This document shows positions 2,879-49,530 of a DNA stretch of 64,000 bases, one piece after another (positions within the stretch are counted from its first letter, which is position 1; each line of letters opens with the position of its first letter). A program made the position numbers and the translations under genes. The notes beneath the pieces were generated by a model, which ran no database searches, was not told the origin of the DNA, and saw nothing but the letters and a program-made list of their open reading frames with translations. The stretch is from Salinibacter sp. 10B. GTDB taxonomy: Bacteria; Bacteroidota; Rhodothermia; Rhodothermales; Salinibacteraceae. The stretch is from contig NZ_MQWC01000004.1 of the NCBI RefSeq assembly GCF_002954405.1, forward strand, positions 1,510,301 to 1,574,300, in the 5' to 3' direction.

Positions 2879-4636
2879 ATGTCTCCCCTCTCTTCCGAAA
2901 GACAGGAATCGCACGGCTCTCCCTCTTCAGAAGACCTCTCCGCTTCGAACGATCAACATGAAGCCCTCTCCCAGGAGGCCCCTTTCAACGAGAAGGCCTC
3001 CTCCATCCCCAAACAAAACATGTCTGTACATGCAAATCTCCCGGTCTCGCTTCGCGGTGACCAGGCGCCTCCCTTTTACTCGGACAGCGAGATGAGCAGT
3101 CGGATCCGCGAGCTCGAATGGGCGGACACCCTGCTCGGGCCGATCGCAAGCTGGCCCCCGGAATTAAAAAACGCGGTCGACATTATGCTTGGTGCGAAAG
3201 AGGCCATCAGTATCTACTGGGGACCCGACCACCTCCTCCTCTACAACGACGCGTGGCGGGAATTTATCGGAGACAAGCACCCAGACGCACTGGGACAACC
3301 GGCCCGCGAAGTGTTTCCAGAACTCTGGGAGGCGATTGGCCCAAAACTCGCTCATGTACTTGCCGGGGAAGGGGCCGCGTACGAACGCGAACAGCGACTG
3401 CCGTTGGAACGGGACGGCCGCCTCGAGGATACGTGGTTCGACTACAGTTTCAATCCAATTCCAATGGCCGACGGCTCCGTCGGCGGTGTGTTGAACATCG
3501 GGACAGAGGCCACCGAGCGCGTCAAGGCTGAATCGGCTCTTCGGCAGAGCGAGGAGTTTCACCGACTGGCCGCCGAGGCTGGAAATATGGGCACCTGGAG
3601 CGTGAATCTTGAAACGGGAGATGCCGTCCTCTCGCCCCGAATGGCTGAACTGATGGGGTACGCACCCAACGAGCACGAGGCCGCCCCAAGCCATTCCGCA
3701 CCGGGGCATTGGCAGCAGAAGGTGCCCCGAACGGCCTGGATGGGCTCCGTCCACCCCGAAGACCGGGCGGTGCTGGAGAAAACCATCGACACTGCCCGCG
3801 AAACGAAGGGGCCGTCCGATCTGGAATTTCGCGTCCAGCACGATGACGGGGTTCGATGGCTTTACGCACGGGGAGAGGTAAACCAGGAGGGACCGGAAGA
3901 GGGACCTCGTCTCCAAGGGGCCTCCATCGACATCACTCGGCGACGCGAGCTGGAAGAAGCACTCGTCGGGACCACCGAAGCGGTACGTCGGGACATTGGG
4001 CGCGAGCTCCACGATGTCTTGAGCTCAGACCTGGCGGCTCTTGCCATAAAAACCGACAATCTCGTGGGCAAACTAGCCCAGAAGGACTCCTCATCCGGAT
4101 CTATTCCTCCCGAGGAGACTCTTCCCGCGGAACTGGGCGACACACTCGATGAGATTGCCGAAGGCATCCGGACGGCGACCAGACGGACCCGCAATCTCTC
4201 CCATGTGCTTATGCCCGCGGCCCTTCAAGAGGAGCACCTCGCTGCCGCCCTTGAGCACCTGTGTCACGAACAGGGGGAGCTGGGCCAACCTGCCCCAATC
4301 TTCGAAGGCGACCGAAAAGAAACGCTTCCCGAACGCAACGAGACGGCAATGCACCTCTACCTTATCGCCCGGGAGGCAATGACGAATGCGCAGCGCCATG
4401 CCAAGGCTGAGCACATCTGGGTTCGCCTCTTCCAGACAAAAGAGGCACTGACCCTCACCATCCGGGACGATGGAGACGGTCTCCCCAGGCAGACGGACTC
4501 ACAGGACGGAATCGGCCTTCGAACCATGAAGCATCGCGCTGACCTCATCGGGGCCTCCCTCCAGGTCACGCCTTTGGAGGAAGGAGGAACGTTGGTCCGG
4601 TGTGCACTGCCCCTCTCCCGAGCCAAAGACAAATAG
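2879..4636 (+). CDS. PAS-domain sensor histidine kinase, HisKA_3 (NarL/DesK) type
   Basis: Predicted 585 aa from ATG 2879; a GTG lies upstream at 2837. Two PAS-type sensor domains are visible, at about residues 60-215 (W-rich, SIYWGPDHLLLYND) and 225-360 (PAS_3-like, with VHPEDR and a closing DITRRRELEEA). The dimerisation segment has RDIGRELHDVLSSDL, with His378 the likely phosphorylated residue. The C-terminal ATPase has the N-box EAMTNAQRHA, the G1 box DDGDGLP and the G2 box GIGLRTMKHRA. This architecture normally phosphorylates a LuxR-type response regulator. None is encoded next to it, so it is an orphan kinase here. No membrane segment is seen, so it is probably cytosolic. The signal sensed is unknown. 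Confidence 0.9.
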   Translation: MSPLSSERQESHGSPSSEDLSASNDQHEALSQEAPFNEKASSIPKQNMSVHANLPVSLRGDQAPPFYSDSEMSSRIRELEWADTLLGPIASWPPELKNAVDIMLGAKEAISIYWGPDHLLLYNDAWREFIGDKHPDALGQPAREVFPELWEAIGPKLAHVLAGEGAAYEREQRLPLERDGRLEDTWFDYSFNPIPMADGSVGGVLNIGTEATERVKAESALRQSEEFHRLAAEAGNMGTWSVNLETGDAVLSPRMAELMGYAPNEHEAAPSHSAPGHWQQKVPRTAWMGSVHPEDRAVLEKTIDTARETKGPSDLEFRVQHDDGVRWLYARGEVNQEGPEEGPRLQGASIDITRRRELEEALVGTTEAVRRDIGRELHDVLSSDLAALAIKTDNLVGKLAQKDSSSGSIPPEETLPAELGDTLDEIAEGIRTATRRTRNLSHVLMPAALQEEHLAAALEHLCHEQGELGQPAPIFEGDRKETLPERNETAMHLYLIAREAMTNAQRHAKAEHIWVRLFQTKEALTLTIRDDGDGLPRQTDSQDGIGLRTMKHRADLIGASLQVTPLEEGGTLVRCALPLSRAKDK

Positions 4637-41482: not shown

Positions 41483-42406
41483 ATGGAATCCACACAAACG
41501 AACGGCGCCGTAAATTTGGAAAAGCGCTTACAAGATCCCGAGACCCGTGCGGCGCTTGTCCACCTTCTCGACCGCCTCGACACGATCGAACGAGCCGTCG
41601 ACGTTCTTGACCGTATCGAACACCAGTGGTCGCCCGTGCTCCAAACCACCGCCGACGTGGTCGACGACGAGTTGACGCGTGCGGCGAACCGGGGCGTCGT
41701 GCTGGACGAACGGGCCAGTGAAGCCCTAACCCTCGTCGAAAAGCTGACGGAGCCGGACACGGTGGAGGTGCTCACGGCCCTCATCGACCGGCTCGACCAG
41801 TTGGAGCAACTGGCCGCTCTGGCCGACCAGTTGCCGGATGCTACGATGATTGCGGTCGACACGATCGACGAGGCCCTCACGCAGGCAGCCGATCGGGGCG
41901 TTGTGCTCGACGAGCGAGCACGGGAGGGCCTGCAGTTGCTCGAAAAGATGACCGAGCCCGACACGGCACAGGCCCTGGGCGCCGTGCTGGACCGAGCGGA
42001 GCACCTGGAGCGACTGTCGGCTCTCGCCGAGACGGCCCCGGATGCGATCGCAACGGTCGTCGACATTCTGGATGCCGAGTACGCTCGCGCCGCCGAGCAC
42101 GGATACGATCCGGAGCGTCTGCTGCGCCAGACGATCGAATCGCTACGCCGCCTGAGCGACCTGTTTCAGTCAGAGGAGTTTGAGGCACTGCTCGACTCCG
42201 GCGTGCTCGACCCAGGGGCCCTACAGGCGGTGGGCAGTCTCGGCTCGGCCCTCGTCGAAAGCCAGAAGGAGTCGCAGCGTGGAGAAACGCCCCGTCGCGG
42301 CTTCTTCGGTCTGCTTGGGGCCCTCCGCGACCCGGACGTGCAGCGTGCCATCGGGTTCATCGTGTCTTTCGCCAAAAAGTTTGACCAAAACCTCAACGGG
42401 AAGTAA
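41483..42406 (+). CDS. DUF1641-family protein with internal tandem repeats
   Basis: Predicted 307 aa, acidic and helical. Two near-identical repeats of about 75 residues are visible (about 48-125 and 126-200), each with RGVVLDERA and EPDT boxes separated by LIDRLDQLEQL-type helices. The C-terminal part has RRGFFGLLGALRDPDVQRAIGF, the DUF1641 hallmark. DUF1641 proteins are repeatedly found next to sulfide:quinone oxidoreductase or formate dehydrogenase genes and may help membrane attachment. The SQR gene starts 64 nt downstream on the same strand. Confidence 0.8.
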   Translation: MESTQTNGAVNLEKRLQDPETRAALVHLLDRLDTIERAVDVLDRIEHQWSPVLQTTADVVDDELTRAANRGVVLDERASEALTLVEKLTEPDTVEVLTALIDRLDQLEQLAALADQLPDATMIAVDTIDEALTQAADRGVVLDERAREGLQLLEKMTEPDTAQALGAVLDRAEHLERLSALAETAPDAIATVVDILDAEYARAAEHGYDPERLLRQTIESLRRLSDLFQSEEFEALLDSGVLDPGALQAVGSLGSALVESQKESQRGETPRRGFFGLLGALRDPDVQRAIGFIVSFAKKFDQNLNGK

Positions 42407-42470
42407 TCCCCCAGCGTCTTGCCCATCCCCCGACGCTCGTCGATTTCTCTCATTCTGATTCCGCATTCCC

Positions 42471-43670
42471 ATGACCAACTCACATCAGGTTCTCATCGTG
42501 GGCGGGGGCACCGCCGGCCTCACGGTTGCCTCCCAGCTCGTCACCCGCGACGACGCACCGGAGGTGGCCGTCATTGAGCCCGCCGACACTCACTACTATC
42601 AGCCCCTATGGACCCTCATTGGGGGCGGCGTTTTTCCGAAAGAAGAATCGGCCCGTCCCATGGCCGAGGTGATGCCGAAGGGCGTGACCTGGATTCAGGA
42701 TGCTGCTGCCTCCTTTGACCCGGACAACAACACCGTGACCACGGCGGGAGGTGACACGTACGGCTACGACTATCTCGTTATGGCCGCTGGCCTCCAAATC
42801 AACTGGGACGCTCTTCCCGGCCTGGCCGAGTCGGTGGGACAGCCCGGCACCGGGGTGGTCAGCAACTACTCCTACGAGACCTGCGAGACCACCTGGGACG
42901 CCATTCAACAATTTCCCAAGGGGGGCACGGCGCTCTTTACGGAACCGACCATGGGCGTGAAGTGCGGCGGTGCCCCGCAGAAAATCATGTATTTGACCGA
43001 CGAAGCCCTGCGCCGGCGCGGCGTCCGCGACGGCAGCCGCATCGCGTTCATGAAAGCGAAGGGGGCGTTGTTCTCGTCGAAGCCCTACGAAGAGACGCTC
43101 TACAAGGTCGTGGAGCGCAAGGACATCGAGGTGAATTTGATGACGGAGCTGACCGAAATTCATCCCGACCAGAAGGAGGCCGTCTTCCGAAACTTGGAGA
43201 CCGAAGAGGAAACGACCATCGGCTACGACCTACTGCACGTCGTGCCCCCGATGGGACCGCTCGACTTTATCGCCGACAGTCCGCTCGCCGATGAGGAGGG
43301 CTGGGTCGACGTGGACGCCGAAACCCTCCAGCACACCCGGTACCCGAACGTATTTGGCCTCGGCGACAACTCCAGCCTGCCCACCTCCAAGACCGGTGCG
43401 GCCATCCGCAAGCAGGCCCCCGTATTGGTGGATCACCTGATGGCGCAGATTCACCACACGACGCCCGTAAACGGCACGTACAACGGCTACACCTCCTGCC
43501 CGCTCGTCACCGGCTACGGCAAACTCGTTATGGCCGAGTTCGACTACGACAAGGAGCCGGACGAGAGCTTCCCGTTCGACCAGACGCAGGAACGCTACAG
43601 CATGTATGCGCTCAAGGCGTACGGCCTGCCTCGCATGTACTGGAACGGAATGCTGAAGGGGCGGATGTAG
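42471..43670 (+). CDS. sqr: sulfide:quinone oxidoreductase
   Basis: Predicted 399 aa FAD flavoprotein that oxidises sulfide to sulfane sulfur and reduces menaquinone at the membrane. It has the FAD site VLIVGGGTAGLTVASQL, the second dinucleotide site DYLVMAAGLQINWDALPG and the late FGLGDNSSLPTSKTGAA. The two redox cysteines of the SQOR-like class are Cys165 (VKCGGAPQKIMYL) and Cys343 (YTSCPLVTGYGKL). The C-terminal helices (MYALKAYGLPRMYWNGML) match the amphipathic membrane-binding segment. It forms a pair with the DUF1641 gene. It supplies persulfide for the dioxygenase encoded at 27919. Confidence 0.93.
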   Translation: MTNSHQVLIVGGGTAGLTVASQLVTRDDAPEVAVIEPADTHYYQPLWTLIGGGVFPKEESARPMAEVMPKGVTWIQDAAASFDPDNNTVTTAGGDTYGYDYLVMAAGLQINWDALPGLAESVGQPGTGVVSNYSYETCETTWDAIQQFPKGGTALFTEPTMGVKCGGAPQKIMYLTDEALRRRGVRDGSRIAFMKAKGALFSSKPYEETLYKVVERKDIEVNLMTELTEIHPDQKEAVFRNLETEEETTIGYDLLHVVPPMGPLDFIADSPLADEEGWVDVDAETLQHTRYPNVFGLGDNSSLPTSKTGAAIRKQAPVLVDHLMAQIHHTTPVNGTYNGYTSCPLVTGYGKLVMAEFDYDKEPDESFPFDQTQERYSMYALKAYGLPRMYWNGMLKGRM

Positions 43671-43942: not shown

Positions 43943-44917
43943 ATGGACACCTTCGATCGCATCCTGCTCCCGACGGACTTTTCGACGACGGCCCGGCAAG
44001 CGCTCTCGTTTGCCGCTCACCTGGCGGCCCGGCACGATGCGGTGCTCCACATCCTTCACGTGCGTACGCCGGCCGAGGAGCGGAAACAGCCCCCAGGGGT
44101 GGACGCCCCCACGACACAGGAGGAGCTGGCCGAGTGCGCCCGGCGGGCAGGGGAGGAGCTGGGCGCCCCCACGGCCCCGGCCGTGGACGTACTCTCTCTG
44201 GTGCGCGACACCGTCGCGGCGGACTCGGTGTCGGACGCGGTACTCGACTACGCCTGCGAGTACGAGATGGACTTGATCGTGATGGGAACGGCTCGCCGGA
44301 GCGGCCTTCGCACCCTCTTCCCGCAAAGCACGGCGTCGGCAGTGGTCCGGCATTCGCCCTGCCCCGTGCTCACGGTGCTCGACACTCCAGACAACGTGCC
44401 CGGCCCGATCGACCAGATTTTCGTGCCGTATGACTTTTCGGAGCCGGCCGCCAAAGCCGTACGCTACGGCAAAGCTCTCGCCGAAGGGTACGGCGCAACC
44501 GTGACACTCGTCCACGTGGTGCAAGACCTGACGGTCCCCATGGAGTACGAATTGAACGTACCCGACGTGAAGACGGCCGACGTGCAGGCCCGTGCCGAAG
44601 CGGCCCTTCAGGAAGAAGCGGCGGATCGGCACCGCGTGCTCGTTGCCACCGGCCATCCGGGCCGCCGCATCGTGGAGCTTGCGGAGGAGCGTGCGGCCGA
44701 CCTCCTCGTGCTCGCAACGCATGGACGGACGGGCCTCCGGCGCATCCTTCTCGGGAGCGTGGCTGAGCAGGTCATCCGTCGCGCCTCCTGCCCTGTCCTC
44801 ACCGTGAACGCGTTTCCCTCCTCAGACCAGAAGACCTCCGAACCGATCGACAATCCGGACCGAAGCGATCAGGTATCCGCATCCGCGTCGGTCTCGAACA
44901 CCGGCTCAAAGTCGTGA
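43943..44917 (+). CDS. tandem universal stress protein (two UspA domains)
   Basis: Predicted 324 aa. Domain 1 (about residues 1-145) starts FDRILLPTDFSTTARQALSF; its ATP-loop region reads TARRSGLRTLFPQSTAS and lacks the usual final Gly-Ser. Domain 2 (about 150-295) starts IDQIFVPYDFSEPAAKAVRY and has the full ATHGRTGLRRILLGSVAEQV. So only domain 2 clearly keeps the ATP-binding pattern. Tandem Usp proteins respond to starvation and oxidative or respiratory stress. The last 16 codons overlap the end of the convergent GntR gene by 49 nt. Confidence 0.9.
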   Translation: MDTFDRILLPTDFSTTARQALSFAAHLAARHDAVLHILHVRTPAEERKQPPGVDAPTTQEELAECARRAGEELGAPTAPAVDVLSLVRDTVAADSVSDAVLDYACEYEMDLIVMGTARRSGLRTLFPQSTASAVVRHSPCPVLTVLDTPDNVPGPIDQIFVPYDFSEPAAKAVRYGKALAEGYGATVTLVHVVQDLTVPMEYELNVPDVKTADVQARAEAALQEEAADRHRVLVATGHPGRRIVELAEERAADLLVLATHGRTGLRRILLGSVAEQVIRRASCPVLTVNAFPSSDQKTSEPIDNPDRSDQVSASASVSNTGSKS

Positions 44918-45675
44918 AGAGGCATGCCGTGCGTGCCTGTGTCGCGCCGGGACGGATCGCGGGCGAGCTCCATTTCGTAGGCGACCCGATCACTCCGATA
45001 ATAGCGCCGCTGATAATAGACCCGCTTCTCCCCTTCGGTAAGCGACAGGCGCTCGATGAGCAGAAGGGCCGTGCCCTCGTCCACCCCGAGTACATCCGCA
45101 ATCGCCGGATCAGCATTGGCTGCCGTAATGCGGTAGCTGCCCCGCAGGATCGGAATGTCGTACTCCGTCTCCAGGATCTGGTAGATCGTCTCGTGCTCCA
45201 GATTGTGCCCTTCGAGGAGTTGGGCGTAAAACATGGGAAGCCAGGTGCGGTCGAACGCCACCGGTCGGTCGTCGCCGAGGCGCAGGCGATCGAGCCGCAT
45301 CACCTTCTGCTCGTCGGTGTTCAGGTGAACAGTCACATCCGGGGGAGGCGTCTCCGGGGCGTGATGCTCTACCACAGAGCGAGCTTCGAGTCCGGCCTGC
45401 GCCATGTCCTGCGCAAAGTCAGTGAGCCGCACGAGTCCCTGCGCGGCCCGCTGTTCTTTAACGAACGACCCCAGCCCCTGCCGCCGATAGATGTAGTCCT
45501 CATTTTCGAGTGTCTGTAGGGCGCGCCGCACCGTCACGCGGCTCACATCGAACCGCTCGCCGATCTCTTTCTCCGAGGGCAGCTTTTCATCCGTGCCGTA
45601 TGCGCCGTCGTCAATTTGCTCGCGCAGCCAGTCGCTGATCTGCTCGTGACGCGGGCGTCCAGATTCGAGGTCCAT
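44869..45675 (-). CDS. GntR/HutC-family transcriptional regulator
   Basis: Predicted 268 aa. The winged helix spans residues about 8-72 (QISDWLREQIDDGAYG, then LPSEKEIGERFDVSRVTVRRAL). A UTRA ligand-binding domain covers about 95-240 (RLRLGDDRPVAFDRTWLP, ILRGSYRITAANAD, LLIERLSL and VYYQRRYYRSDRVAYEMEL). UTRA regulators sense small metabolites such as sugars, amino acids or phosphonates. Its 3' end overlaps that of the first Usp gene by 49 nt. The second Usp gene starts divergently 330 nt upstream and could be a target. Confidence 0.92.
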   Translation of the reverse strand: MDLESGRPRHEQISDWLREQIDDGAYGTDEKLPSEKEIGERFDVSRVTVRRALQTLENEDYIYRRQGLGSFVKEQRAAQGLVRLTDFAQDMAQAGLEARSVVEHHAPETPPPDVTVHLNTDEQKVMRLDRLRLGDDRPVAFDRTWLPMFYAQLLEGHNLEHETIYQILETEYDIPILRGSYRITAANADPAIADVLGVDEGTALLLIERLSLTEGEKRVYYQRRYYRSDRVAYEMELARDPSRRDTGTHGMPLHDFEPVFETDADADT

Positions 45676-46005
45676 AGCGAAGATTCAGAAGATGTCTGCG
45701 GGAAGCGCAGCGAAAGAGAACATATTCACGGTCTGCACCAAGCGAAAAGCTCCTATCGTCGACGGTTCGCCTAGGATCCGTCCTGATGTTCGATCGTCGG
45801 CGGCCGACGCCGTTCCTTCGTTCACAGCCAGCGCGGCTCTCAAGGGGCCATTACATCGGGTTCAGGGAAACTCCTACAAACGAACCTCCAGGGGAGCGCT
45901 CTCTTTTGATGTGTAGTGAAGATGTTCGAATTCCGTAGACGTGGTCGTGGACCCCGTCGCGGAGGTACACCAAACGCACGTTCTTACACAACGGAGGATC
46001 CAGCC
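45676..46005. other. intergenic region, 330 nt, divergent genes
   Basis: It holds the promoters for the GntR gene (leftward) and the second Usp gene (rightward). A GTTCTTACACAAC element at 45980-45992 shares GTTCTTACA with the dyad at 40725. A strong GGAGG (45993-45997) follows it. No gene is recognised. Confidence 0.4.
45993..45997 (+). promoter_or_regulatory. strong Shine-Dalgarno site GGAGG
   Basis: GGAGG lies 8 nt upstream of ATG 46006 and decides this start over the upstream ATG codons at 45916 and 45922, which have none. Confidence 0.55.
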
Positions 46006-46947
46006 ATGCTCAATATCCAACGAGTGTTGTTTCCTACTGATTTTTCCGATGGGTCAAAGCGCGCCTTTCCGCAGGCGGCGTTTCTCGCGGACTGGCACGA
46101 CGCTGAACTCCACATTTTGAACGTGACGGGCCGCCACCGACACGACTACAAGGAGACGAAGAAAAACTTTCCGATCTCGCCCGACACCCTCACGGAGTGG
46201 CTTCGGCGCCCGGCGCAGTCGGTCGAAGGGACGACCTGGCCCGACCTGGAGGCCCTGCCGATCGAGCAGTCCCAGATCGAGGCGTCCACCCCCGCGGAGT
46301 CCATCGTCACGTACGCGGACGACAAGAATATTGATCTCGTGGTGATGGGCACCCACGGACGGCGCGGCGTCGATCGGATGCTCTTCGGCAGCGTAACGGA
46401 AGAGGTTGTACGGCGAGCCCCATGCCCAGTTTTCACCGTGCGGGCCGACGCCGACAAGACGCCCGGACAGGCAGTTCGACGGGTTCTCGTTCCCATCGAC
46501 TTTTCCGACGCGTCCGAAAGCGCCGTGCAGCACGCCAAGGAGATTGCACTTACCTACGGGGCGGAGATCGATCTGCTACACGTCGTGGAACCGCCCTTCT
46601 ACCCGTCGGCGTACGGCATTGATACCACCACCTTTCCCACACAAGAGGTGGTGGACCGAGTCGAGAAGCAGCTGGGAGACATGGCGCGCGAGGAAATTGG
46701 GTATGAGCACGTCATGGTGAGTGCCACTGTAGGACACCCCCCCAGCGAAATTTTGAACTACGTGGATGAGAACGAGGTAGATCTCGTGGTCATTGCCACG
46801 CACGGTCGTACGGGACTGGAGCGCGCCCTTCTCGGCAGCGTAACGGAGCGAGTGCTGCGGCGCTCCCCTGCCCCGGCCTTCGTGGTGAAGCCGACTCGTA
46901 AATCGCTGTTGCCCTCTGCCAAGACGGCGGCAACCCAGGAAACGTAA
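46006..46947 (+). CDS. tandem universal stress protein (two UspA domains)
   Basis: Predicted 313 aa from ATG 46006. Domain 1 starts IQRVLFPTDFSDGSKRAF and keeps GTHGRRGVDRMLFGSVTEEV. Domain 2 starts VRRVLVPIDFSDASESAV and keeps ATHGRTGLERALLGSVTERV. Both have the G-x2-G-x9-G-S ATP-binding pattern, unlike the first domain of the Usp encoded at 43943. It lies between the GntR regulator (divergent) and the SQR-like gene (convergent). Expect induction by stress, though the signal is not visible in sequence. Confidence 0.92.
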   Translation: MLNIQRVLFPTDFSDGSKRAFPQAAFLADWHDAELHILNVTGRHRHDYKETKKNFPISPDTLTEWLRRPAQSVEGTTWPDLEALPIEQSQIEASTPAESIVTYADDKNIDLVVMGTHGRRGVDRMLFGSVTEEVVRRAPCPVFTVRADADKTPGQAVRRVLVPIDFSDASESAVQHAKEIALTYGAEIDLLHVVEPPFYPSAYGIDTTTFPTQEVVDRVEKQLGDMAREEIGYEHVMVSATVGHPPSEILNYVDENEVDLVVIATHGRTGLERALLGSVTERVLRRSPAPAFVVKPTRKSLLPSAKTAATQET

Positions 46948-47316
46948 CAGCTGTAACCGTCTACCTCACAGAGAACTCCCATCGTAAACGATATGGCCCG
47001 GAACGTGCCGTTGATGCCGAACGGCGCTTCTCGGGTCATTTGCGTTGGGGCGGCGCCTCCGGAGTGGGAATACCCTCATCTGCTAGATACGATACCAACT
47101 CCGGCACCTCTATTCCGGTAGGAAGCAAGCTTCCGTAGCGTCGTTGGAGTCCAACGACGCTACACGGGTGTCCTCTGCCCCGTCCGACGGACAATCTCAC
47201 AATCCTACAGTCCAACGGCGCTTCTGGAGGCCTCCTTGACGACACCGACGATACGATAGGGGTTTGCGTATTGCACCGCCGCACCTCCTACCTGAAGTCT
47301 GCAGTAGGATTCAGTA
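46948..47316. other. intergenic region between convergent genes, 369 nt
   Basis: No gene is recognised. It contains the perfect hairpin 47135-47163 and two copies of AACGGCGCTTCT (47020-47031, 47214-47225). Its placement between convergent genes fits a terminator role for the hairpin. Confidence 0.45.
47135..47163. terminator. perfect 13-bp hairpin between convergent genes
   Basis: GTAGCGTCGTTGG and its exact reverse complement are separated by only AGT. The core CGTTGGA/TCCAACG recurs at 37995-38010. No T-run follows on either strand, so it may be a repeat element rather than a classic terminator. Confidence 0.5.
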
Positions 47317-48411
47317 TTACGACTCCTGCATTCGGGCGTGCCGTATCGCTCGCGCCACTTCTTCTGCCTGCTGCCGCGCCCGCTCCGCGGTCTTGACACC
47401 CTCCACCCCAATCACATCGCCAACCCCAAACACGGTCTCAAACCGCGGGTGCCGAAACGTTTCAGGATCTACCTCTAAGTACCCCCGCATCGGCCCCCTC
47501 TGATAAGATAGATCACTCTGTTCGAGAATGGCAGGCGGCCGCATGGGCGGCACCACGTGTAGGAGATCATACCGGAGAACGTCCTGACTCTGCGACTCTC
47601 CCTTCGACACGTTGAACACGGCCTCTCGGTGGTCGGGGCGCACGTCGACGAGATCGTATCCGGAGAAGATGCGGATGTCCTCTACGTGCTCACTGCGATC
47701 AAGGAGATCGCCATACTCCGCCCCCATTGCCTCGGACGAGGCGGCGGTCGCAAAGTACAACTCCGTGCGGTCCCGAACACCAGTTTCTTGCCATAGCGCC
47801 TCGGCCCGGAAGAGAAGACGCAACGGAGCGCTTCCGCTTTTGTGTGGTGTGGACGGGGCCGTAAACAGGGCCCTCCCTCCGTCAAATGTACGGATCAAGT
47901 CCCAGGCCTGACCGGCCGACTCGTAGCTGTACACACTGCAGATGCCGGCTTTGCCAAGATTCGCTTTCAGATTTCGAATGCGGTCCCATTGAACGTGAGT
48001 GCCGATGGCAACAACAAGATGCTCATAGTGCACCTTCCCTCCGTTCTCCATCATCACGACTCGCTCTTCCGGGTGAATTTCCGCTGCCCGGGCCTGAATC
48101 CAGCTCACCTCTTCTGGAATTTGCAGGTGCTCCGGCGAACGCGTCTGTTCTTTTTGGATGCCTTCTGTTCCAACACGCATCCACGCCGGCTGATCGTAGT
48201 GGGTCATCGACGGCTCAATGAGGGCGATGTCCGCAGCTAGCCCCATTTCACGCAAGGACTGGAGAACGGCAATCCCCCCCACCCCGCCGCCGAGTACAAC
48301 AACGGGATACGAGGACGCAACGGGGGCGTCCGTCTGCGTAGGTGACCCCACATTCGATTCCGATGGAGGCGAATCGGAGGAACTGTCAGAAATAGAAAGG
48401 CGCGTATTCAT
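47317..48411 (-). CDS. SQR-like FAD protein lacking both redox cysteines
   Basis: Predicted 364 aa from ATG 48411; a 35-residue Ser/Pro-rich leader precedes the fold. It is clearly homologous to the SQR at 42471: VVVLGGGVGGIAVLQSL, SMTHYDQPAWMRVG, EHLVVAIGTHVQWDRI, YDLLHVVPPMRPPAI and FGVGDVIGVEGVKTAERA. At the first redox cysteine it has HKSGSAPLR instead of VKCGGAPQK (Ser192). The C-terminal segment with the second cysteine and the membrane helices is absent. It probably binds FAD but cannot do the usual sulfide chemistry. A sensor, scaffold or different reductase is possible. It is divergent from a PAS protein gene. Confidence 0.82.
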   Translation of the reverse strand: MNTRLSISDSSSDSPPSESNVGSPTQTDAPVASSYPVVVLGGGVGGIAVLQSLREMGLAADIALIEPSMTHYDQPAWMRVGTEGIQKEQTRSPEHLQIPEEVSWIQARAAEIHPEERVVMMENGGKVHYEHLVVAIGTHVQWDRIRNLKANLGKAGICSVYSYESAGQAWDLIRTFDGGRALFTAPSTPHKSGSAPLRLLFRAEALWQETGVRDRTELYFATAASSEAMGAEYGDLLDRSEHVEDIRIFSGYDLVDVRPDHREAVFNVSKGESQSQDVLRYDLLHVVPPMRPPAILEQSDLSYQRGPMRGYLEVDPETFRHPRFETVFGVGDVIGVEGVKTAERARQQAEEVARAIRHARMQES

Positions 48412-48732
48412 GGAGAAGTGGCCCTGCGGCAGGAGATGGCTCGGGATTGCACAAGTTCGCAGTTCACTCCCCAAGACACAAAGGAGAACTGGCGCAACCC
48501 TTCCCGCGAACTTCCCCCTTTACCCGTAAGGATTTGGAGCCTCCTCCGACCTCCTCTTGTCTGAATGGCGTCTGTGCCAATCGTTTCTCGTTTGGGGTGC
48601 GTGAGGATTCGCCCCACAGTCGTTTGCGTGAATGCTACAACGTTGGCCAACGCTGTATCCGCTACGATGTGTTTCCCTCTTGGATGTCTTCTTCTCCTGG
48701 TGCAGACGGCTCTCGAATTGTGCTCCCTCCCC
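48412..48732. other. intergenic region, 321 nt, divergent genes
   Basis: It separates the SQR-like gene and the PAS gene and should carry both promoters. No Bacteroidota -7 box, dyad or heptad array stood out. A frame in phase with the PAS gene runs back to 48565 but is Cys/Val-rich and unlike its protein. Confidence 0.4.
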
Positions 48733-49530
48733 ATGCATACGCTCAAGCAGTCCCTCCCTACGACCGGCTCCCATCCGATTCTCGATGAACTCCGGTCGTC
48801 GCTATACCACGCCCTTACGATCCTGAACGAGAAGTGGGAAGAAGTATCGCTGTCCGTAACCGCCCCGTCGTTCTCGTCAACGAAGGGAACCGAACGCTCC
48901 TTTCGAGTAGAAACCCCCACCGAGCGGATTGTGCAGATTCAATTCGGAGTGTATCCGCTCGGTCCTGGAACGTACGAGGTGTACATTTCACTTGCCGATG
49001 GCCCCACGCGACGCCTCACCTACGATTCAAACCGGGGAGACACCACCGACGCCGAGCAGGCATGGCTTGGGCAAACAGCCACCATCGCCCTGATGGAAGA
49101 GATCGAACCGCGACTTAGCCGGATCGAATCGCCCCCGCCCGAGCCATCTCCCGACGCCTCCGTTCCCCAACTGGACATTGAATGCGACGGGACCATTCGG
49201 AACCTCAACCCAGCGGCCCGCACCATTATCGATGTGTCCGGCGACTCCTGCGAGGCCCCGAGCTTTTTTACCTATGTCCACGGCCGCAATCTGCGCCAGG
49301 TGATCCGCGACCTCACCCGCATGGAGCAGGGAACCATTCAGCGCGCGCGATGGCTCCTGCGTCTCCAAACGGGAGAACCTCGGGAACGCTGGTACCGCGG
49401 ACGGGCAACGAGCCAGCTCGACTCGAAGGGGACGGTTCGCCTTCGCCTTCACCCCCTGAGTCCTCCGAAAACACCGCCCTCCGAAGGCGACGCCGCGCCC
49501 GCTGAACACAGAAAAGCCGACAGGACGTAA
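48733..49530 (+). CDS. PAS-domain protein without output domain
   Basis: Predicted 265 aa from ATG 48733 (MHTLKQSLPTTGSHPILDEL). The N-terminal half has an uncharacterised alpha/beta domain (VQIQFGVYPLGPGTYEVYISL). The C-terminal half is PAS-like: LDIECDGTIRNLNPAARTII, then FFTYVHGRNLRQVIRDLTRM and WLLRLQTGEPRERWYRGRA. No kinase, cyclase or DNA-binding domain follows, and the tail is Pro-rich. A free PAS protein divergent from the cysteine-less SQR homologue suggests the two act together, but this is inference. Confidence 0.7.
   Translation: MHTLKQSLPTTGSHPILDELRSSLYHALTILNEKWEEVSLSVTAPSFSSTKGTERSFRVETPTERIVQIQFGVYPLGPGTYEVYISLADGPTRRLTYDSNRGDTTDAEQAWLGQTATIALMEEIEPRLSRIESPPPEPSPDASVPQLDIECDGTIRNLNPAARTIIDVSGDSCEAPSFFTYVHGRNLRQVIRDLTRMEQGTIQRARWLLRLQTGEPRERWYRGRATSQLDSKGTVRLRLHPLSPPKTPPSEGDAAPAEHRKADRT

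Follow-up and report, generated by a model that had tools for sequence, protein, structure and literature searches.

Enzymes with sulfide:quinone activity, the SQRs, pass electrons from sulfide into respiration in bacteria and mitochondria. Of the described systems, type II SQR, represented by human SQOR (PDB 6OI5/6OI6), stands closest to the protein discussed here, for which we coin the name SQRt (the product of 47317-48411 on the minus strand, together with its orthologs). The two have the FAD Rossmann fold and the central domain in common over ~330 residues (TM 0.82), but SQRt lacks either catalytic Cys and the C-terminal domain that holds the quinone channel and membrane helices. In SQRs, this domain houses the quinone channel and also takes part in membrane binding, and C. 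maquilingensis SqrC deprived of one or two helices becomes cytoplasmic and inactive (PMC9666304). T. roseopersicina SqrF, on the other hand, keeps its activity without its single terminal helix (PMC9666304), so function can survive the loss of helices alone. SQRt goes further than the SqrC or SqrF helix mutants in that the whole C-terminal domain is lost. The type I SQR of Acidithiobacillus ferrooxidans (3T31) has the same fold as SQRt (TM 0.67) at 16% identity. Cys158 of SQRt aligns with its Cys128 and Ser192 with its Cys160, and SQRt is without equivalents of Cys160, Cys356, His132, and the C-terminal domain.

Two further systems are instructive. ATPTT1 of the Tetrahymena type III ATP synthase (6YNV) has an SQR-like fold that was recruited outside SQR metabolism and is a precedent for putting the SQR fold to another use (PMC7583250). 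Unlike SQRt, ATPTT1 is longer, eukaryotic, and NAD-binding, with a Cys near the cofactor, and it is not a close relative. Flavoproteins of the thioredoxin-reductase type, like SQRt, have two Rossmann domains and no third interface domain. SQRt differs from them in its single Cys and therefore the absence of CxxC, in the absence of the NAD(P)H motif GxGxxG/A, and in a sequence that groups with SQR. No prior description of an SQRt-like clade was found in the literature searched, subscription journals lying largely outside it. The clade offers a natural test of what the SQR fold does without the SQR reaction and, if it is true that SQRt senses redox or sulfur state, would show that an SQR can become a regulator in bacteria.

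The window analyzed is a stretch of 64,000 nucleotides from Salinibacter sp. 10B (contig NZ_MQWC01000004.1), and its features of interest are collected in Table 1. Genomes used for comparison are designated by index, G000 being the window genome.

Table 1. Features of the SQRt locus, in window coordinates
Feature	Position	Strand	Basis
DUF1641 protein, conserved upstream neighbor of the canonical SQR in the genus	41483..42406	+	Pfam, synteny
Canonical type II SQR, both catalytic Cys (KCGGAP, TSCPLVTG)	42471..43670	+	ORF, alignment
GntR-UTRA regulator, syntenic anchor	44869..45675	-	Pfam, synteny
USP-domain protein; G020 ortholog directly precedes PAS gene	45916..46947	+	Pfam, synteny
Dispersed intergenic repeat with perfect 14+1+14 palindrome at 47135-47163; outer edges approximate	47090..47257	.	
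SQRt, 364-aa SQR-derived flavoprotein	47317..48411	-	ORF; Pyr_redox_2; SQR alignment; AF2; PDB match
Ser192 codon, position of SQR catalytic Cys 1	47836..47838	-	alignments
Cys158 codon, sole Cys of SQRt	47938..47940	-	alignments
Intergenic region between divergent SQRt and PAS genes	48412..48735	.	blastn
PAS protein (probable start), PAS domain ~49162-49470	48736..49530	+	open frame from 48565; Pfam, homologs

Fold of SQRt and loss of the catalytic parts

The open frame of SQRt spans 47317-48474 on the minus strand, and translation from the ATG at 48411 yields the 364-aa product. A Pyr_redox_2 domain is recognized by Pfam (48.5 bits against a cut-off of 26.1), and a sequence search of solved structures places human SQOR nearest (E 4e-57, residues 34-352). 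An AlphaFold2 model from a 47-row alignment reached a pLDDT of 86.9 and a pTM of 0.84 with low confidence in the first 25 residues; a model from only six sequences was poor (58.5). Foldseek with the better model returned human SQOR as the top PDB match (TM 0.82 on the query, 31-32% identity). Together with the FAD motifs kept, these results confirm the claim of the first-pass annotation that this protein has the FAD fold of SQR.

Columns in which at least 95% of 39 full-length type II SQR sequences agree were scored across the six SQRt. Every SQRt retains 36 of these columns, 12 are altered in every SQRt (C192, G194, Q197, and K198 among them), and 22 are gone with the C-terminus. The FAD motifs GGGxGG and GD (G41, G42, G43, G46, G331, D332) are retained, as are Q74 and K340. 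Because the nucleotide-binding residues are kept, SQRt would be expected to bind FAD. No GxGxxG was found in the alignment of the central domain, so the usual NAD(P)H site is missing.

The first-pass annotation had also placed the loss of the first catalytic Cys at Ser192 and reported that the segment with the second Cys and the membrane helices is missing, and the alignments bear out both statements. The Cys of VKCGGAPQK in the window's canonical SQR is matched by Ser192 here and by Gly in each of the five orthologs, and SQRt terminates at a helix (342-363) before the TSCPLVTG of that enzyme. All six SQRt stop just past the helix that follows the GD...KT motif and are without the CPLxTG segment, the second Cys, and the C-terminal helices. 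Both the alignment and the model place the quinone site and the C-terminal domain, with its amphipathic helices, among the parts that are absent, which points to a soluble, cytosolic protein. The loss of both catalytic Cys is beyond chance because they are conserved at 95% or more in the 39 SQRs and present in none of the six SQRt, while 36 other columns stay. SQRt is probably unable to carry out the SQR reaction, and its role is probably a redox-responsive or structural one.

The remaining cysteine

Cys158 is invariant in all six SQRt. The earlier description of a protein without redox cysteines thus stands for the two catalytic residues and fails for this one. In a MAFFT alignment with the A. 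ferrooxidans type I SQR, whose sequence was checked against the PDB, Cys158 falls on Cys128, the third Cys of that enzyme. The surroundings are alike (GICSV and SICTV), and the spacing to the next Cys position is nearly equal (34 and 32 residues). An hhalign comparison of the SQRt profile with a fragment of the type I SQR gave no match, so the correspondence rests on the MAFFT alignment, the local motif, and the spacing. In SQR, letting go of the polysulfur product has been linked to Cys128 (PMC6335251). A Cys occupies the Cys158 position in 19 of the 39 type II SQRs of the phylum, and the Salinibacter-type SQR has Val; Cys158 was accordingly rejected as a novelty of the SQRt clade. Judged from these alignments, SQRt has given up the two essential cysteines and retained the accessory one.

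Distribution, phylogeny, and selection

Among 27 genomes of the family, SQRt is present in six (G000, G001, G003, G013, G014, and G017). The five orthologs, all from the same family of halophiles, are 49-55% identical and carry the same truncation, and 91 columns are invariant at this level of identity. No further SQRt was found in a 394-genome sample of the phylum. A scan of 84,980 species returned only four SQRt (Salinivenus lutea, Salinivenus iranica, and two Bacteroidetes MAGs), the scan having used two short motifs that could miss distant members. In plasmid records, the best among the matches listed were SQR-like proteins less than 37% identical, with no SQRt among them. Among the genomes searched, SQRt is confined to one family of halophilic Rhodothermota.

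The six SQRt group as a single clade (100/100) whose stem is very long, at 1.67 substitutions per site, and the position of this clade relative to the type II SQRs is uncertain (84/65). SQRt is about equally similar to human SQOR (~197 bits) and to the nearby canonical SQR (~199 bits), which, with the length of the stem, rules out a recent duplication of the latter. In the close pair G013 and G014, 22 synonymous and 5 nonsynonymous codon changes give an omega (dN/dS) of 0.08, and SQRt is under purifying selection as measured in this pair. SQRt is therefore a real, old, and conserved gene family, and the view of a specialised SQR paralogue gains the support of a conserved, selected clade devoid of both catalytic Cys and the C-terminal domain. 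That SQRt is instead a decaying SQR copy or pseudogene, as truncation and missing catalytic residues might suggest, can practically be dismissed, since five orthologs are truncated alike with 91 invariant columns, omega is 0.08, and the frames are open throughout.

What SQRt may do

We propose that SQRt descends from type II SQR, is soluble and binds FAD, has ceased to work as a sulfide:quinone oxidoreductase, and most likely acts as a redox-responsive regulator or adaptor, a reading to which we assign a probability of roughly 45%. With the C-terminal domain gone, SQRt would be cytosolic and the flavin side would lie open to a partner or a small molecule. A change in the state of the flavin or of Cys158 could then alter the surface of SQRt and with it the binding to another protein. 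This partner would not be the neighboring PAS protein; gene order hints at stress-type genes and, in two genera, at a NarL-type histidine kinase/response regulator pair. The case for a regulatory role comes from gene context and the missing catalytic parts, and a novel enzyme or a structural protein would account for these about equally well.

A soluble oxidoreductase with another reaction is a tentative alternative that we consider somewhat unlikely. A persulfide or thiol would reduce the flavin, perhaps through Cys158, and oxygen or a small carrier protein would reoxidize it. The kept flavin motif, the purifying selection, and an invariant Cys158 at the place of the SQR Cys128 implicated in polysulfur release (PMC6335251) are all in keeping with such an enzyme. 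However, a Cys at this position is widespread among the phylum's ordinary type II SQRs and so is not new, G194, Q197, and K198 around the lost Cys192 have drifted as well, and no electron acceptor gene is linked to SQRt.

SQRt could also be a structural or scaffold protein past redox chemistry, in the manner of ATPTT1, and we know of no complex that contains SQRt. ATPTT1 matches SQRt in sequence (E 4e-19) and in fold (TM 0.76) and, as a protein recruited into a complex, binds NAD rather than FAD (PMC7583250). The long stem and lost catalytic residues of SQRt agree with a scaffold, but the FAD-type residues that it keeps would be needless in a pure one. Moreover, a Cys sits close to the cofactor in ATPTT1 itself, and whether this protein is active is a question that its authors leave open (PMC7583250). 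On balance, we hold a scaffold to be unlikely.

Returning to the regulator or adaptor, its most specific form is a cytosolic flavin/sulfur redox sensor made from a disarmed SQR. Cys158 or the flavin would provide the read-out, and the signal would pass to a partner, for example the histidine kinase and NarL-type regulator whose genes lie beside that of SQRt in two related genera. So precise a version is doubtful, and we rate it as decidedly improbable. The context of the SQRt gene varies between genomes. It can be seen whole in G003 and G017, and contig ends cut off the upstream side in G001, G013, and G014. Stress-type neighbors are a USP gene in the window and, in G003, a BON gene directly upstream of SQRt (72 bases, same strand); in G017, a mechanosensitive-channel gene is divergent from SQRt. 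On the opposite strand, downstream of SQRt, G003 and G001 carry orthologous genes for a histidine kinase and a NarL-type regulator (regulators 51% identical over 224 residues, kinases 41% over 274), with an MMPL gene in between in G003. In a family-wide search with the kinase, the match in G001 stood clearly above the rest (183 bits; next 139), and only G003 and G001 have such a clear best match in common. Regulators of the NarL type are too common for counts of co-occurrence. This pair, associated with SQRt in two genomes of two genera and absent at the window locus, is a better regulatory lead than the PAS protein, and two genomes are too few for a module. Elsewhere in the window, a histidine kinase domain (3839-4609) is a 36% match to the kinase near SQRt in G003. 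Defense-system models gave no match.

The neighboring PAS protein

Similarity of the PAS protein to its ortholog sets in near 48736, which is the probable start. The PAS domain lies below the Pfam cut-off in the window protein alone (E 0.06) and becomes clear at the level of the family, 12 of 14 homologs matching PAS_4 (best PAS 1.6e-8). With no output domain found, the first-pass description of an output-less PAS protein was accurate. Its C-terminal part belongs to a small family of stand-alone PAS proteins of ~130 aa, and as a member of this local family the protein has no demonstrated link to SQRt. Stand-alone PAS frames of this size with no output domain are conserved across nearly all family genomes and are also present in other families of the order (L050 1528-1926; L027-L049, L081-L089). 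The proteins of the window and of G020 are longer forms with an extra N-terminal part. This part resembles a separate 152-aa frame, found elsewhere in the window genome, at 26-28% (L120, G000:C4:2040716-2041117), a likeness hinting at a small domain family.

The earlier proposal that SQRt and the divergent PAS protein together form a flavin-based redox or sulfide sensor is very improbable. In its favor are the divergent adjacency in the window genome and a genuine PAS family membership. However, a PAS ortholog occurs in only two of the 27 family genomes (G000 and G020), and the pair is found in G000 alone, with no conservation beyond the window genome among the 27. PAS occurs without SQRt in G020, and SQRt occurs in five genomes that lack this PAS protein; G001, G013, and G014 have no ortholog of the full PAS protein. 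In G020, moreover, the PAS gene retains its own upstream sequence and sits directly behind its USP neighbor with no SQRt between. By blastn, the USP gene of the window is covered by similarity to G020, which then breaks off and restarts ~115 bases upstream of PAS, and the dispersed repeat sits in the gap where gene order breaks. Insertion in the window and loss in G020 both fit this break. Co-occurrence and synteny thus reject a conserved SQRt-PAS module, and the adjacency is an accident of one genome. No sigma-70-type promoter was found between the two genes, and such promoters may not apply to this group.

Gene order around the locus and the dispersed repeat

The canonical SQR lies 4 kb from SQRt. 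At the level of the genus, the order is Tll0287-like, DUF1641, SQR, and GntR (G015, G016, G021, and G022), and the window locus has two USP genes, SQRt, and PAS in addition. By GntR identity (91%), the closest relative is G020, which has Tll0287-like, GntR, USP, and PAS genes without SQR, DUF1641, or SQRt; a search of G020 for SQR gave no match at 1e-8, and DUF1641 is absent at its locus. DUF1641 and SQR adjoin throughout the genus (window 41483-43670; L056). A third SQR-like gene in the window genome is of the type III kind and has both Cys (IKCPVAP and NCFIETG; L023 1492-2760, G000:C4:35625).

The palindrome in the repeat, GTAGCGTCGTTGGA-N-TCCAACGACGCTAC, is part of a longer element dispersed among intergenic regions. 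Allowing up to three mismatches, it occurs 34 times in the window genome, 49 times in G020, and a few times in G017, G018, and G013, with none in the other 22 genomes and none for a reversed-pattern control. The repeat looks like a REP- or MITE-like element.
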